Assembly (NCBI GenBank): GCA_944386905.1
Contig: CALXCW010000005.1
Coordinates: 1-34,011, forward strand
Reading direction: 5' to 3'
Origin: an uncultured Oscillospiraceae bacterium
GTDB taxonomy: Bacteria > Bacillota > Clostridia > Oscillospirales > Oscillospiraceae
Length of the DNA: 34,011 bases
Shown here: piece by piece, positions 18,501 to 22,974 of the stretch
How positions within the stretch are numbered: the first letter of the stretch is position 1
How the letters are laid out: the number at the start of each line of letters is the position of its first letter
The notes under the pieces: generated by a model
Databases searched by the model: none
What the model was told of the DNA's origin: nothing
Seen by the model: only the letters and a program-made list of their open reading frames with translations
Made by a program: the position numbers and the translations under genes

Positions 18501-18911
18501 TTATTTTGAGGACTCCCGCGCGACGCCCGCCACAAAGACCAGGTTGGCGCCATCCTGGTTGTCACCGGTGCGGATGACGGCCTTAGAATCGGCGATAGCC
18601 GCCTTGAAGTCGGCCACGGTAACCAGCTCCACCGTCACGCCCGGGAAAGAGTCGAGCACCTTCTGATAGAATTCGGGGTTGAGCTTCGGCACGAAATCCA
18701 TCATCAGGATCTTGTCAAAGGCCCAATACTCACCGATGGTCTGGGCCACGTCCAGCACCATGGGATCTCCCCGCCGCCAGCCGAGATCGATGATCTCTTT
18801 GGCCTTGTCGCCGCCGGACATGCCAAAGTCCAGAATGGAAACCTTGTCATAATGACGGCAGCTGGAGATGACACGGTTGATGTCTGCGTGAATGATTTTC
18901 CCTTTGTACAT
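18501..18911 (-). CDS. RbsD/FucU-family protein (sugar pyranase/mutarotase-like)
   Basis: This is a 136-residue protein clearly related to RbsD/FucU, enzymes that interconvert pyranose and furanose or alpha and beta anomers of ribose or fucose. The N-terminal HADINRVIS, His20 (CRHYDK) and Asp28 (ILDFG) fit the family, as does the C-terminal AVIRTGDNQDGANLVFVAGV. Two family residues look changed. The His before the EFK segment (HEEFK in RbsD) reads VADFK here, and the Tyr of the PYAN motif is replaced (QDGAN). It is therefore divergent and may use another sugar or bind without catalysis. GAGGTG lies 8 bases before ATG at 18911. It is the first gene of a four-gene operon, behind the promoter at 18990-19018. 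Confidence 0.78.
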   Translation of the reverse strand: MYKGKIIHADINRVISSCRHYDKVSILDFGMSGGDKAKEIIDLGWRRGDPMVLDVAQTIGEYWAFDKILMMDFVPKLNPEFYQKVLDSFPGVTVELVTVADFKAAIADSKAVIRTGDNQDGANLVFVAGVARESSK

Positions 18912-18987
18912 GCTCTACACCTCGTTTTAATTTTGACCCAGCGGCCGCGATCTGACCGGCGAGCTCGCTTTGTCATATTTTGTATCA

Positions 18988-18999
18988 TTATGATAACAT
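18988..18999. promoter_or_regulatory. Weak fourth operator-like site
   Basis: TTATGATAACAT matches site B (ATGTCATAACAT) at 9 of 12 positions and keeps the ATAACAT half. It overlaps the -10 box of the RbsD-like operon. The match is weak and would need support from related genomes. Confidence 0.3.
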
Positions 19000-19018
19000 A
19001 TCAACTTAATTACGTCAA
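18990..19018 (-). promoter_or_regulatory. Sigma-A-type promoter of the RbsD/GldA/AKR operon
   Basis: On the minus strand TTGACG (19013-19018) is followed after 17 bases by TATCAT (18990-18995). The start of transcription would be near 18983, about 70 bases before the ATG at 18911. Confidence 0.6.
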
Positions 19019-19162
19019 TATGTATTTGTTGTATTTTCACGAAAACTGCCGCGCCCCAGCAGGCGGATTGCTTCATCCCGCGCAAATTCTGGTCGCCCCA
19101 TTCGATCTATTGAAGGCTTCGACCGGAGAAGTCCGTCTTTGACCCCATCCGCAGACATAGAA

Positions 19163-19395
19163 AAACGGCGAATTTCCATGGAAGAAATTCGCCGTTTGAG
19201 ACTGTCAAAAAACCTCGCTACCAGTGCCCGTGACAGAGCAGCGGGGAATGTGTGCAAGGGGTTAAGACCCCTTGCACGTTCAAAAAGGGATGGATTTTTC
19301 AACTTTTCGAAGTTGAAAAATCCTGAGGCAGCGTGGCGAAAAGACTTTTTCGACACGCTGAAACGGCGAATTTCCATGGAAGAAATTCGCCGTTT
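19163..19395. repeat. Chain of five palindromes bounded by two identical 35-bp hairpins
   Basis: Two identical 35-bp inverted repeats (14-bp arms, 7-base loop) lie at 19163-19197 and 19361-19395. Between them are a 10-bp stem (19252-19261 with 19268-19277), a 14-bp stem capped by TTCG (19292-19305 with 19310-19323) and an imperfect 13-bp stem (19329-19341 with 19348-19360 region, one mismatch). A short pair at 19202-19207 and 19231-19236 encloses the start. No protein gene fits here. Frames that cross it on either strand are spurious. The block separates the RbsD operon promoter from the end of the amino-acid transporter operon and may terminate the latter. It looks like a non-coding interspersed repeat rather than a simple terminator. 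Confidence 0.8.
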
Positions 19396-19432
19396 TGTGT
19401 CCTATTCGCGATTGATTTCTTTTCCCTGCGAT

Positions 19433-20218
19433 CTAAGAAGCGGAGTAGTGGGCCAGGAAGTGGCGCGTGCGCTCTTCTCTGGGGTGTTCGATGACCTGAT
19501 GGGCAGGGCCGCGCTCGACGATGACACCGCCGTCCATAAAGATGATCTCATCGGCCACATCCCGGGCAAAGGCCATCTCATGGGTGACGATAATCATGGT
19601 CATGTGCTGCTCCGCCAGGGCCCGGATAACCTTGAGCACCTCGCCGGTGAGCTCAGGATCCAGCGCCGAGGTGGGCTCGTCGAAGCAGAGGATATCCGGC
19701 TTGAGGGCCAGGGCTCTGGCAATGGCCACCCGCTGCTGCTGACCGCCGGAGAGCTGATCAGGATAGTTGCCCATGCGGTCTTTCAAGCCCACCTGGGCGA
19801 GGAGGTTTTCGGCATTGGCACGGATCTCAGCGAAGATCTCCTTTTTCCGCTGCTTGTAGTCCGGCCGCTCCCTGGCCAAAAGCTGGCTGGCCAGCATCAC
19901 ATTCTCCAAAGCCGTATACTGGGGGAAAAGGTTGAAATTCTGAAACACCAGGCCAAACCGCAGCCGCTTTTTCCGCACCTCTCTGTCGGAGGTTTTGGTT
20001 TTGACGCCGCCGTCCAGCAGCAGCTGGCCGTCTACGTGGATGGTACCGCTGTCGGGACTCTCCAGGAAGTTGAGGCACCGCAAAAGGGTGGTCTTTCCCG
20101 AGCCGGAGGAGCCGATGATGGCCAGAGACTGGCCCTTCTCCAGGGAGAAGTTGATGTCCTTGAGCACCTCGGTCTCCCCGAAGTGCTTTTCCAGATGGGA
20201 TACTTCCAGCATTGCCAT
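19433..20218 (-). CDS. Polar amino-acid ABC transporter, ATP-binding protein (GlnQ type)
   Basis: This is a 261-residue cytoplasmic ATPase. Walker A is GSSGSGKT, the Q-loop is GLVFQNFNLFPQYTALENV, the signature is LSGGQQQRVAIARAL, Walker B is LCFDEPTSALDPE and the switch His is in IIVTHEM. These are classic marks of the GlnQ/HisP polar amino-acid importers. GGAGGGG precedes ATG at 20218, 12 bases after the permease stop. It is the last gene of a three-gene operon. The precise amino acid cannot be told from the ATPase. Confidence 0.93.
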   Translation of the reverse strand: MAMLEVSHLEKHFGETEVLKDINFSLEKGQSLAIIGSSGSGKTTLLRCLNFLESPDSGTIHVDGQLLLDGGVKTKTSDREVRKKRLRFGLVFQNFNLFPQYTALENVMLASQLLARERPDYKQRKKEIFAEIRANAENLLAQVGLKDRMGNYPDQLSGGQQQRVAIARALALKPDILCFDEPTSALDPELTGEVLKVIRALAEQHMTMIIVTHEMAFARDVADEIIFMDGGVIVERGPAHQVIEHPREERTRHFLAHYSAS

Positions 20219-20230
20219 GTTTTCCCCTCC

Positions 20231-20881
20231 TCACACGCGGTAATAGCTGAGCTTCTTTTCCACCCAGCCGAAGAAGATGGTCAAAACACCGTTGAAGGCC
20301 AGGTAATACACGCCGGTGAAAAACAGCGGCCAGACCAGACCCTTTTTCATAAACCGGTCGCCGGCCCAGATCACTTCCGTCAAGGCGATGATATTGGCCA
20401 GGGAGGTATCCTTGACCAGGGTGATGATCTCGTTGGACATGGGCGGCACGATTCGCCGCACCAGCTGCATCAGCTTGACCTTGAAGAAAATCTGTCCCTT
20501 GGTCATGCCCAGCACCAGGCCGGCCTCGGTCTGGCCGCGGGGAATGGACTCGATGCCGCCGCGGTAGATCTCAGAGAAATAGCAGGCATAATTGATGATA
20601 AAGGCTGCGGCCGCCGCCCAAAAGCGGCCGTTTTGAAAGCCCCAGATATTGTGCCCCAGCTTACCGGGGACATAGAAAATAATCATCAGCTGCAGCAGCA
20701 GCGGAGAGCCCCGGAAGATCCACACCAGCACCCGACACACGCCCTTGAGGGGTGTGAACTTGCTCATGGAGCCGAAGGAAATCACGAGTCCCAGAGGCAG
20801 CGCCCCCAGGAGCGTGACGCCAAAAAGCGCCAGCGTCACAAGAAAGCCTTCGTTGAGCGAAGCAAATACAGTTCCAAACAT
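20231..20881 (-). CDS. Polar amino-acid ABC transporter permease
   Basis: This is a 216-residue membrane protein of the His/Glu/Gln/Arg permease family with about five membrane segments. SMSKFTPLKGVCRVLVWIFRGSP and the EAA-type loop GGIESIPRGQTEAGLVLGMTKGQIF are visible. I chose ATG at 20881 because GGAGG lies 7-8 bases upstream. The frame continuing to 20968 covers the intergenic hairpin. It works with the ATPase at 19433 and the binding protein at 20996, probably as a homodimer. Confidence 0.9.
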   Translation of the reverse strand: MFGTVFASLNEGFLVTLALFGVTLLGALPLGLVISFGSMSKFTPLKGVCRVLVWIFRGSPLLLQLMIIFYVPGKLGHNIWGFQNGRFWAAAAAFIINYACYFSEIYRGGIESIPRGQTEAGLVLGMTKGQIFFKVKLMQLVRRIVPPMSNEIITLVKDTSLANIIALTEVIWAGDRFMKKGLVWPLFFTGVYYLAFNGVLTIFFGWVEKKLSYYRV

Positions 20882-20951
20882 GTCGATTCCTCCAGAAGTG
20901 GGTGTGGTACGATAATGGGGCGGTGGGCCCCGCCAGGGGACTGGGCGGTGC

Positions 20952-20982
20952 AAAAGAGCCAGGGACACGCGCCCTGGCTCTT
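20952..20982 (-). terminator. Stem-loop with T-tract between binding-protein and permease genes
   Basis: Two 11-bp arms (20954-20964 and 20972-20982, 7-base loop) form a strong stem, followed on the minus strand by TTTTG. It begins 14 bases after the binding-protein stop. It probably terminates a large part of transcription, leaving more binding protein than permease and ATPase. Confidence 0.7.
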
Positions 20983-20995
20983 GACAGACAGGCTA

Positions 20996-21907
20996 TTACT
21001 GCTCGACCACGGATTCCTGCACGCCGTAGGTTTCGGCACAGGCCATCATGGAGCCGTCGGCATAGGACGCGGCGAAGAATTCATTGAGCGCCGCCACCAG
21101 GTCGGAGCCCTTGCGGAAGCCCACGCCGTACTCTTCGGTGGTGAGCTCCACGGTGTAGACCAGATCGGCATTGTTGGTGCCCTCGCCGATCATGGCGCCG
21201 GCCATCAGCAGATCGATGATGCAGGCGTCGGAGGTGCCCGCAGAGACTTCCATCAGCGCGTCGGCCTGGGTGTCCACGGCGATGTAGTTGTAGCCCTGCG
21301 CCTCCGCGGCGGCTTCACCGGCAGAGCCGGACTCCACAGCAAAGTTCAGATCCTTGCAGTCCTCCGCGGTGGCGTACTGCTCCGCCACGTCGGCCTTGAC
21401 CACTACCACCTGGGCGTTGTTGCAGTAGGCGTTGGAGCAGTCCATGGTGGCCAGAACTTCCTCGGTGAGGGTCATGCCGTTCCAGACACAGTCGATGTTC
21501 TTGCCATCCAGCTCCATGCTCTTGGTGTCCCAGTTGATCTCCACAAATTGAGCCTCCACGCCCAGACTCTCGGCAAAGGCCTTGGCCATGTCGGCGTCAA
21601 AGCCGATCCATTCGCCGTCCTCCATATAGTCCATGGGGGCAAAGTCGGTGATGCCCACAACCAGCGTGCCCTTCCCCTGGACATAGGCCTTGTCGGACTC
21701 GGCAGCGGTGGTATCGTCGGTGGTGTCATCCGTGGTGTCGTCGGTGGCGTCATCCACGGCATCGTCGGTGGCGTCGTCGGTCGTGTCGGCGTCATCGGTC
21801 GTGTTCTGGGTCTGGTCGTCGGTCTGATCTGCGGCGGTGTCGGCGGCGCAGGCCATCAGAGAAAAGACCAGCAGGACGCTGAGCAGCAGCGCAAGAAATT
21901 TTTTCAT
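20996..21907 (-). CDS. Polar amino-acid ABC transporter substrate-binding lipoprotein
   Basis: This is a 303-residue lipoprotein of the SBP_bac_3 family. The signal peptide ends in SLMAC, with Cys20 as the lipidation site. A linker of some 45 residues made of Thr/Asp/Ala repeats follows, then the binding domain with VVGITDFAPMDYMEDGEWIGFDADMAKAFA, the usual start of the first lobe. AESGSAGEAAA-type and CIIDLLMAGAM segments match the second lobe. AGGAGG lies 7 bases before ATG at 21907. It is the first gene of the importer operon. An acidic or neutral polar amino acid is likely, but not decided by the sequence. Confidence 0.9.
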   Translation of the reverse strand: MKKFLALLLSVLLVFSLMACAADTAADQTDDQTQNTTDDADTTDDATDDAVDDATDDTTDDTTDDTTAAESDKAYVQGKGTLVVGITDFAPMDYMEDGEWIGFDADMAKAFAESLGVEAQFVEINWDTKSMELDGKNIDCVWNGMTLTEEVLATMDCSNAYCNNAQVVVVKADVAEQYATAEDCKDLNFAVESGSAGEAAAEAQGYNYIAVDTQADALMEVSAGTSDACIIDLLMAGAMIGEGTNNADLVYTVELTTEEYGVGFRKGSDLVAALNEFFAASYADGSMMACAETYGVQESVVEQ

Positions 21908-21959
21908 TTCATATCCTCCTTTGGTTGCTCGCATTTCGCTAGCACGGTGGTATTTTAGC

Positions 21960-21988
21960 ACGTTAAAGGACTGGTGTAAATGGGTCAA
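21960..21988 (-). promoter_or_regulatory. Possible promoter of the amino-acid transporter operon
   Basis: On the minus strand TTGACC (21983-21988) and TAACGT (21960-21965) are 17 bases apart. The -10 box is a poor match, so the call is tentative. The gap 21908-22051 holds nothing else apart from a short AT-rich palindrome at 22017-22036. Confidence 0.35.
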
Positions 21989-22051
21989 ACATCCAAACAT
22001 CGCGTAAAAAACTCGTGCAAAATTGGCAATTTTGCCAGTATCAAAGGGTGC

Positions 22052-22079
22052 AAAAAAGCGGCCCCGAAGGGCCGCTTTT
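22052..22079 (-). terminator. Intrinsic terminator of the foldase/lipid-kinase operon
   Basis: On the minus strand GCGGCCC-TTCG-GGGCCGC, flanked by AAAA and TTTTTT, follows the lipid-kinase stop immediately. Arms are 22054-22064 and 22069-22079. The stable TTCG loop, G+C-rich stem and T-run make this the clearest intrinsic terminator in the window. Confidence 0.92.
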
Positions 22080-22974
22080 AGGAGGCTGGGACAATGATTT
22101 CCACGGCGCGGCAGCGATTGGTGATGTCCACCTCTTCGTAGGCGCCGCCAAACTCGCCGTCCACCGTCCATTTGACGGCTCGGGGAAAGGCAAAGCGCAC
22201 ATGGCCGGTCTGAAACGTATAGAAGAACTTCGGGTCAAACTCCCGCTTGACCAAAAGCGTGCCCAAAGCGTTGAGGTCGGCCAGGGTCTTGATATTCTTG
22301 GCTACGATGACTTCCGAGAGGCCGTCGTTGAGCTTAACGCCAAAATCCTGCCGAGCCCGGAAGCCTCCCACACTGGTGGTGGAGCAAACCAGCCCCAAAA
22401 GCACCTCTTCCTCGATGACCTTTCCCTCCACCTCCATGCGCATCTGAATGGGGCGGATCTCCCCCAGGCTCTTGACGCCGTTGAGGAGGTAGGCCAGGCG
22501 GCCTAAGATCCGTTTATCCTGCTGGGGAGTCTGGTAGGATACATCCGTAAAGGCGCCAAAGCCCGCCACGTAGGTAAACCATCTCTCCGCGCCCAGCGCG
22601 CCGATGTCGATGGCGAAAGGCTCGCCCCCCACCACCGTCCTGGCCGCCTCCACCGGGTCGCGGCTGAGGCCCAGCGTAGCAGCCACGTCGTTGACGGTGC
22701 CGCCGGGGATATAGCCCAGGAGCGGTCGCCGGGAGAGCTGCATCAATCCCGAGACGGCCTCATTGAGGGTGCCGTCGCCACCGGCACAAGTCACGATGTC
22801 ATATTCCCCGGCGTGTTCGCGGAGAAAGGCCGTGAGATCGCCGGGGCCCTGGGTGGCATGGACGGTGACGTCAAAGTCCGCCGCGGTGAACACCGACAGC
22901 ACATCCATCAGCTTGTTTCTCAGCTCCAGCTGTCCCGCCTTGGGATTGACAAAAAAGAGCATCTTGCGCCGCAA
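22078..22974 (-). CDS. Diacylglycerol/sphingosine-kinase family lipid kinase (YegS/DgkB type)
   Basis: This is a 298-residue soluble or membrane-associated kinase. VNPKAGQ opens the catalytic domain, CAGGDGTLNEAVSG (about residues 63-76) is the nucleotide-binding motif, and IPGGTVNDVAATLG (about 89-102) corresponds to the PxGTxND-A motif. Such enzymes phosphorylate diacylglycerol or related lipids, often recycling lipid released by cell-envelope synthesis. The start is uncertain. TTG at 22974 gives the full length with a weak GGTG site. ATG at 22962 would remove four residues and has no good Shine-Dalgarno. It is the last gene of an operon with two extracytoplasmic foldase-like proteins, 29 bases after the previous stop. 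Confidence 0.87.
   Translation of the reverse strand: MRRKMLFFVNPKAGQLELRNKLMDVLSVFTAADFDVTVHATQGPGDLTAFLREHAGEYDIVTCAGGDGTLNEAVSGLMQLSRRPLLGYIPGGTVNDVAATLGLSRDPVEAARTVVGGEPFAIDIGALGAERWFTYVAGFGAFTDVSYQTPQQDKRILGRLAYLLNGVKSLGEIRPIQMRMEVEGKVIEEEVLLGLVCSTTSVGGFRARQDFGVKLNDGLSEVIVAKNIKTLADLNALGTLLVKREFDPKFFYTFQTGHVRFAFPRAVKWTVDGEFGGAYEEVDITNRCRAVEIIVPAS

Follow-up and report, generated by a model that had tools for sequence, protein, structure and literature searches.

The window analysed here, a stretch of 34,011 nucleotides from an uncultured Oscillospiraceae bacterium, contains a block of 233 nt (19163-19395) in which one palindrome follows another, and the question raised by this locus is of what such a block consists and how it came to lie behind an operon for amino-acid transport. 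A sequence-only reading had described it as a chain of stem-loops, one of them capped by TTCG, between two identical 35-bp hairpins, and this description is borne out by more formal means. A sequence repeat search finds two exact 35-nt copies at the borders of the block (19163-19197 and 19361-19395), each being a 14-bp inverted repeat with a 7-nt centre. Between them lie a 14-bp hairpin with a TTCG cap (19292-19323) and, as read from the sequence, further hairpins at 19252-19277 and 19329-19360 and a weak one at 19213-19246. The folding energy of the block is -113.8 kcal/mol as compared to -62.9 ± 4.5 kcal/mol for 200 dinucleotide shuffles (z = -11.2), none of which was as stable.

The block is composed of two things, namely a 163-bp MITE on the forward strand (19198-19360), which is a non-autonomous relative of an IS1182-family IS and carries no transposase gene, and the duplicated target hairpins that flank it. 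The identical 35-bp hairpins are target DNA and lie outside the repeat; they represent the intrinsic-terminator hairpin of an amino-acid ABC-transporter operon, duplicated whole. It is very probable that the MITE was moved in trans by an IS1182-family transposase and that its palindromic target was duplicated in its entirety via its structure.

Searching the own genome with the block yielded 10 full or near-full copies of the MITE and six contig-end pieces. In nine of the 10 copies the match is confined to about positions 32-202 of the 233-nt block and thus to the core, leaving out the hairpins; the tenth copy is that of the window. The terminal hairpins are therefore not part of the repeat. 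The sequence-only reading was thus right in proposing an interspersed repeat that is more than a terminator, but it is the core and not the 35-bp unit that is repeated; this unit, taken then as a building block, is instead a duplicated, terminator-like target hairpin that differs from site to site. The core was found in eight of the 60 genomes searched, the own genome included, and is abundant in the genus: a 14-base MITE end occurs 13 times in the own genome (G000) and 48, 29, 68, 8, 1 and 0 times in G005, G006, G007, G002, G004 and G012, respectively, with zero matches for its reversed control in the same genomes. Several contigs of the own genome end inside the core, and contig pairs with a common hairpin can be recognised by eye (C136/C22, C37/C74 and C109/C60), a pattern that breaks of the assembly at the repeat would produce. 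The MITE family appears to be undescribed in the literature searched. A second type of small element with the same ends (AGACTGTCAAAAAA...) and another interior also occurs beside hairpins (L054, L059, L061, L063, L067), and at about positions 558-615 of L060 (G005:C4) a short palindrome from the right end of the IS (CAGACTGTCGAGAAACC...GGTTTCTCGACAGTCTG) lies between two hairpins. Among viral contigs, one carries the right-end palindrome of the MITE, and no canonical copy was seen around it.

Both ends of the MITE resemble those of IS1182-type elements by eye, albeit in exchanged order. The left end (19198-19214, forward strand), which reads GAGACTGTCAAAAAACC here and CAGACTGTCGAGAAACC in sister copies, is related to the right end of the IS (IRR; CAGACCGTCGAGAAACC in IS copy L096). 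The right end (19329-19360, forward strand), itself palindromic, is related to the left end of the IS (IRL), its reverse complement CAGCGTGTCGAAAAAGTC being identical at 16 of 18 positions to the first 18 nt of the IRL CAGACTGTCGAAAAAGTCCAGC of the same copy. Judged from these sequences, the ends would fit an internally deleted or end-captured derivative of the IS.

A putative parent is present in the own genome as well. In contig C29 of G000 a terminator-like hairpin is directly followed by TAGACTGTCGAAAAAGTCCAGC and an open frame that matches the IS1182 transposase model NF033551 (E = 2.7e-68; 231 bits at a cut-off of 270, the gene being cut by the contig end) and also Pfam DUF772 and DDE_Tnp_1, so that an IS1182 transposase gene is co-resident with the MITE. 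A profile search of the own genome for DDE_Tnp_1_6 (PF13751) returned none, the transposase gene of C29 being cut at the contig end. The IS is assembled there in its 5' part only, and complete copies are found in relatives. Mobilisation in trans had already been suggested from the palindromes themselves, and given this gene and the IS1182-type ends we infer that the IS1182 transposase of the own genome would be the enzyme moving the MITE. A scan of genome contigs yielded relatives at 52 loci, mostly in Oscillospiraceae and other Clostridia, and among viral contigs there was one transposase locus, for the IS copy of which no empty site was found. The start of the transposase is carried by L077 (G006:C286) and L114 (DVGD01000067.1). 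At the left end of the IS (e.g., in L096 and L056) a hairpin with a T-run precedes a TATAAT-like transposase promoter and might shield it from transcription that enters from the target gene.

The abundance of palindromes inside the MITE could also mean that it is a selected structured site in RNA or DNA, such as a 3' UTR structure or a nucleoid site, which is mobile only incidentally. Besides the four internal hairpins as such, the central palindrome GGATTTTTCAACTT-TTCG-AAGTTGAAAAATCC (19292-19323, forward strand, and its equivalents) speaks for this possibility, since a copy-by-copy count found a near-perfect stem of 12-17 bp in 48 of 49 copies with widely different arms. An RNAalifold run on 30 of the 49 copies missed this palindrome because MAFFT misaligned its arms, and revealed three pairs changed on both sides, with both-sided changes in the helix of the internal hairpin GTGCAAGGGG/CCCCTTGCAC (19252-19277, forward strand). 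However, an Rfam search of positions 18800-19800 gave no match to E = 1, which lends no support to the RNA-structure or nucleoid-site role considered in the sequence-only reading, and the insertion sites are unrelated to each other. In addition, palindromes can also persist through template-switch repair, which could maintain those of the MITE; either selection on structure or palindrome repair may account for the retention of the central one. Taken together, a selected structured site is an improbable explanation of the element.

That the MITE inserted into a hairpin and duplicated it is evident from the flanks of its other copies. In the own genome the hairpins differ between sites and are each repeated across the MITE, the exact shared strings amounting to 27 nt (C29), 34 nt (C145), 27 nt (C106) and 24 nt (C11). 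For a systematic count, with 19198-19360 as the boundaries of the element, left and right ends were paired in the window and in 143 loci from the own genome and relatives; of 82 pairings, 73 had flanks of at least 45 nt on both sides, and 62 were left after removal of duplicates, these being the copies around the search matches and not every copy in the genus. Whole-hairpin duplication was found in 33 of the 62 distinct copies. Among the remaining 29, one has a long imperfect duplication, five are flanked by hairpins that differ from each other, 15 have a hairpin on a single side and eight have none; by eye, several of the 29 have duplications of 3-8 bp, and in L204, counted among the 15 one-sided copies, the whole hairpin is duplicated but has diverged. 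Of the 62 copies, 42 have a hairpin foot no more than 6 nt from the left end and 50 have one equally close to the right end, as compared to 217 of 1903 control positions (p = 4e-24 and p = 3e-34, respectively, Fisher's exact test). With these target duplications, and being short, multi-copy, without a transposase gene and equipped with IS1182-type ends, the element has the attributes of a MITE. The duplicated hairpins are unrelated in sequence, and the targets extend beyond terminators to several REP-like palindromes (L197, L196). Palindromes of this type (GTAGGGGCGG...CCGCCCCTAC) occur in the genus at L173, L174, L196, L197 and L207, some of them serving as targets. Copies whose ends lie at the feet of two different hairpins include L005, L068, L215 and L216. 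One-sided hairpins are situated at the IS-left-like end in 10 copies vs. two or three at the other end, and no polarity is claimed from this tally, which was made by eye after turning L219 (binomial p = 0.04 or 0.09).

Whole-hairpin duplication is also found at autonomous elements. Scanning 88 loci for both ends at a distance of 1350-1750 bp gave 30 distinct full IS copies, of which 18 show whole-hairpin duplication, 22-34 nt in length, and nine have hairpins at both ends that are different from each other (L085, L086, L091, L093, L101, L103, L136, L144 and L170); three copies (L119, L143 and L145) were placed outside both classes by the script, the left hairpin of L119 being, by eye, below the cut-off. 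To the 18 duplicating copies the complete genome of Oscillibacter valericigenes contributes its first IS1182 element (L095) and eight copies of a second one, and metagenome assembly is therefore not the cause of the duplications. Another one of the 18 resides on a Sutcliffiella plasmid (L171). At seven further plasmid loci from Bacilli, inspected by eye, whole-hairpin duplication was seen in three, from Listeria (L235, 21 nt), Cytobacillus (L238, 35 nt) and E. faecium (L241, 25 nt); of the other four, three show a hairpin outside the right end, and the fourth (L240) lacks one at the left end and appears to be rearranged. A copy on a Thermocaproicibacter plasmid (L167 with L192) has two different hairpins.

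DDE transposases are usually typed by a fixed length of the target duplication. In contrast, the length is variable here and predicted by the hairpin: in 55 cases (34 MITE rows, 18 IS and three plasmid copies) the length of the duplications, 21-38 nt, correlates with that of the longest left-flank hairpin, the span of which was measured separately (r = 0.96), and in 52 of the 55 neither foot is more than 3 nt away from the edges of the duplication.

The state before insertion can be read from plasmids, which were queried with the two joined flanks and one hairpin. For the E. faecium insertion 32 records match, 28 of them over at least 80% of the query and three in 132/132 positions; for that in Listeria 20 records match, six over at least 80% of the query and five in 129/129 positions. 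Read directly, there is one hairpin in the empty AP026606 and NC_013767 and there are two in the filled L241 and L235 with the IS. For the insertions in Exiguobacterium and Cytobacillus the search returned only those records themselves, and for L240, an E. faecium ISEfa7 copy with no hairpin at its IRL, coverage of the query stayed below 80% in all 238 records that match, giving no empty site, and the right flank of this copy corresponds to IS256 transposase genes carried by other plasmids.

These results bear on a transposition of the IS1272 type, in which the element would swap places with its target stem-loop without duplicating it. Transposase family and kind of target are in common with IS1272 according to the accessible parts of two reports (PMC5678879, PMC4923244), and copies with a one-sided or no hairpin could be products of such a replacement. 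However, the 33 MITE and 18 IS copies counted above have the hairpin on both sides, the two pairs of filled and empty sites go from one hairpin to two, and loss of the stem-loop without duplication is found neither in the block nor in most copies. Replacement is refuted as the main pathway here by the filled and empty pairs and is very unlikely to have formed the block.

In the window, the target was the terminator of a gene for an ABC-transporter ATPase (19433-20218; Pfam ABC_tran, 5.1e-38), which forms an operon on the reverse strand with the genes for a permease (20231-20968; BPD_transp_1, 1.7e-20) and a solute-binding protein (20996-22171; SBP_bac_3, 1.6e-26). The next gene downstream, beyond the insertion and on the same strand, codes for a protein of the RbsD/FucU family (18501-18911; RbsD_FucU, 6.6e-19). 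From the copy of the hairpin adjoining the operon (19361-19395, reverse strand) the T-tail was cut off by the MITE, the tail now reading CAGCGTG. The distal copy (19163-19197) keeps the original T-tail on the reverse strand, where it was called terminator-like with 15 pairs and the tail TTCTATGTCT. Since hairpin and T-tail are retained there, the operon should remain terminated, with the MITE in its 3' UTR, and a retained terminator would render such insertions nearly harmless. Five relatives from the genus have an orthologous ABC operon with readable downstream DNA, and none has the MITE within 500 nt. In all five a hairpin, imperfect in G005, lies within 110 nt of the stop of the operon; as these hairpins differ in sequence from that of the window, they are positional and not sequence-identical empty sites, and a search for the latter in the genus with the left flank returned only the window itself and one 27-nt match. 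Empty sites, to which the sequence-only reading had looked for a decision, are thus available in identical form for the plasmid insertions of Listeria and Enterococcus and only by position for the window.

A local, non-mobile terminator array of the ABC operon, the reading to be favoured had the block been unique and always at orthologous sites, can point to the terminator-like distal hairpin but is hardly credible, as the core is interspersed at unrelated loci and absent from all five orthologous sites. Equally little is to be said for a REP/BIME-type repeat moved by a REP-associated tyrosine (Y1/HUH) transposase, which would likewise be palindromic, intergenic and abundant, with several targets (L197, L196) being REP-like, but which does not agree with IS1182-type ends on both sides and long target duplications.

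As to the mechanism of transposition into hairpins by the IS1182-family transposase, the target would be recognised not by its sequence but by being a palindrome that can fold into a hairpin or cruciform, the two element ends would be joined to the two 5' feet of this structure, one per strand, and repair would then copy the entire hairpin on both sides, whereby the length of the duplication would become that of the hairpin. The feet of a cruciform would be spatial neighbours though 21-38 bp apart along the helix, and the target was presumably extruded when attacked, with the attack at its 5' feet. This suggests that the shape of DNA can set the amount of target DNA which a transposase duplicates. 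For one branch of the IS1182 family, we lean slightly towards the view that target structure, rather than a constant stagger of the enzyme, sets the duplication length, the four-way junction of the extruded cruciform being treated as a short-spaced target, and that a single geometric switch separates attack at the 5' foot, which would duplicate, from attack at the 3' foot, which would delete as in IS1272. With a complete terminator left to the gene, the duplicating branch would then have come upon a niche in which it does hardly any harm.

Copies with one, no, or two different hairpins need another route, such as short-stagger insertion, loss of a copy, recombination between copies or deletion between hairpins. 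Those with two different hairpins may be traces of a deletion or an exchange between hairpin targets, hairpins in common (C60/C109; L068/L063) suggest an exchange between copies, and contigs of draft genomes may be chimeric assemblies. In the complete genome of O. valericigenes a search for reciprocal partners of one two-hairpin IS found none, both hairpins of this copy being unique to up to two mismatches. In genome annotation, a short palindromic core between two identical hairpins is to be seen as an insertion scar.

With prokaryotic MITEs as reviewed in the accessible text of PMC10969869, in which the term IS1182 is absent, the element shares its shortness, the lack of a transposase, inverted ends in common with an IS, an intergenic location and many copies, but it differs in its target duplication, which comprises an entire hairpin and varies in length. 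A palindromic extragenic target is shared with the REP-targeting ISs (PMC1525189), unlike which the entire palindrome is duplicated here and hairpins of unrelated sequence are used.

The closest parallel is IS1272/TnSha1, which, as far as the accessible parts of PMC5678879 and PMC4923244 show, likewise depends on an IS1182-family transposase and targets a stem-loop, often a terminator, without a sequence consensus; there, however, all or part of the stem-loop is removed without duplication, whereas here it is duplicated whole. Attack on a cruciform at the 3' foot was proposed to remove the stem-loop in IS1272, a member of the IS1182 family, and in the portion of that report available the 5'-foot attack duplicating it is drawn only as a hypothetical pathway b (Wan et al. 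2017, PMC5678879, Fig. 13). The data from the window and the MITE copies fit this duplicating pathway, for which they provide natural evidence, and the filled and empty plasmid pairs make structure-guided transposition testable. Whole-hairpin duplications of 21-35 bp are likewise found at ISEfa7 and other IS1182 elements of Bacilli (E. faecium pELF_AA94, Listeria pLIS32 and plasmids of Cytobacillus and Sutcliffiella), the transposases of which have about 43-46% protein identity to that of the own genome. A report from 2025 (PMC12056078), in its accessible part, notes that there is little information on IS1182-type elements and gives duplication, deletion and structure recognition as alternatives among them. 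In the open-licence literature, as far as its texts were accessible, no report of whole-hairpin duplication by an IS1182 element was found, and ISfinder or TnPedia may note it. Within these sources, then, stem-loop targeting by IS1182 elements is already known, and whole-hairpin duplication as the usual outcome was found only as a hypothesis.
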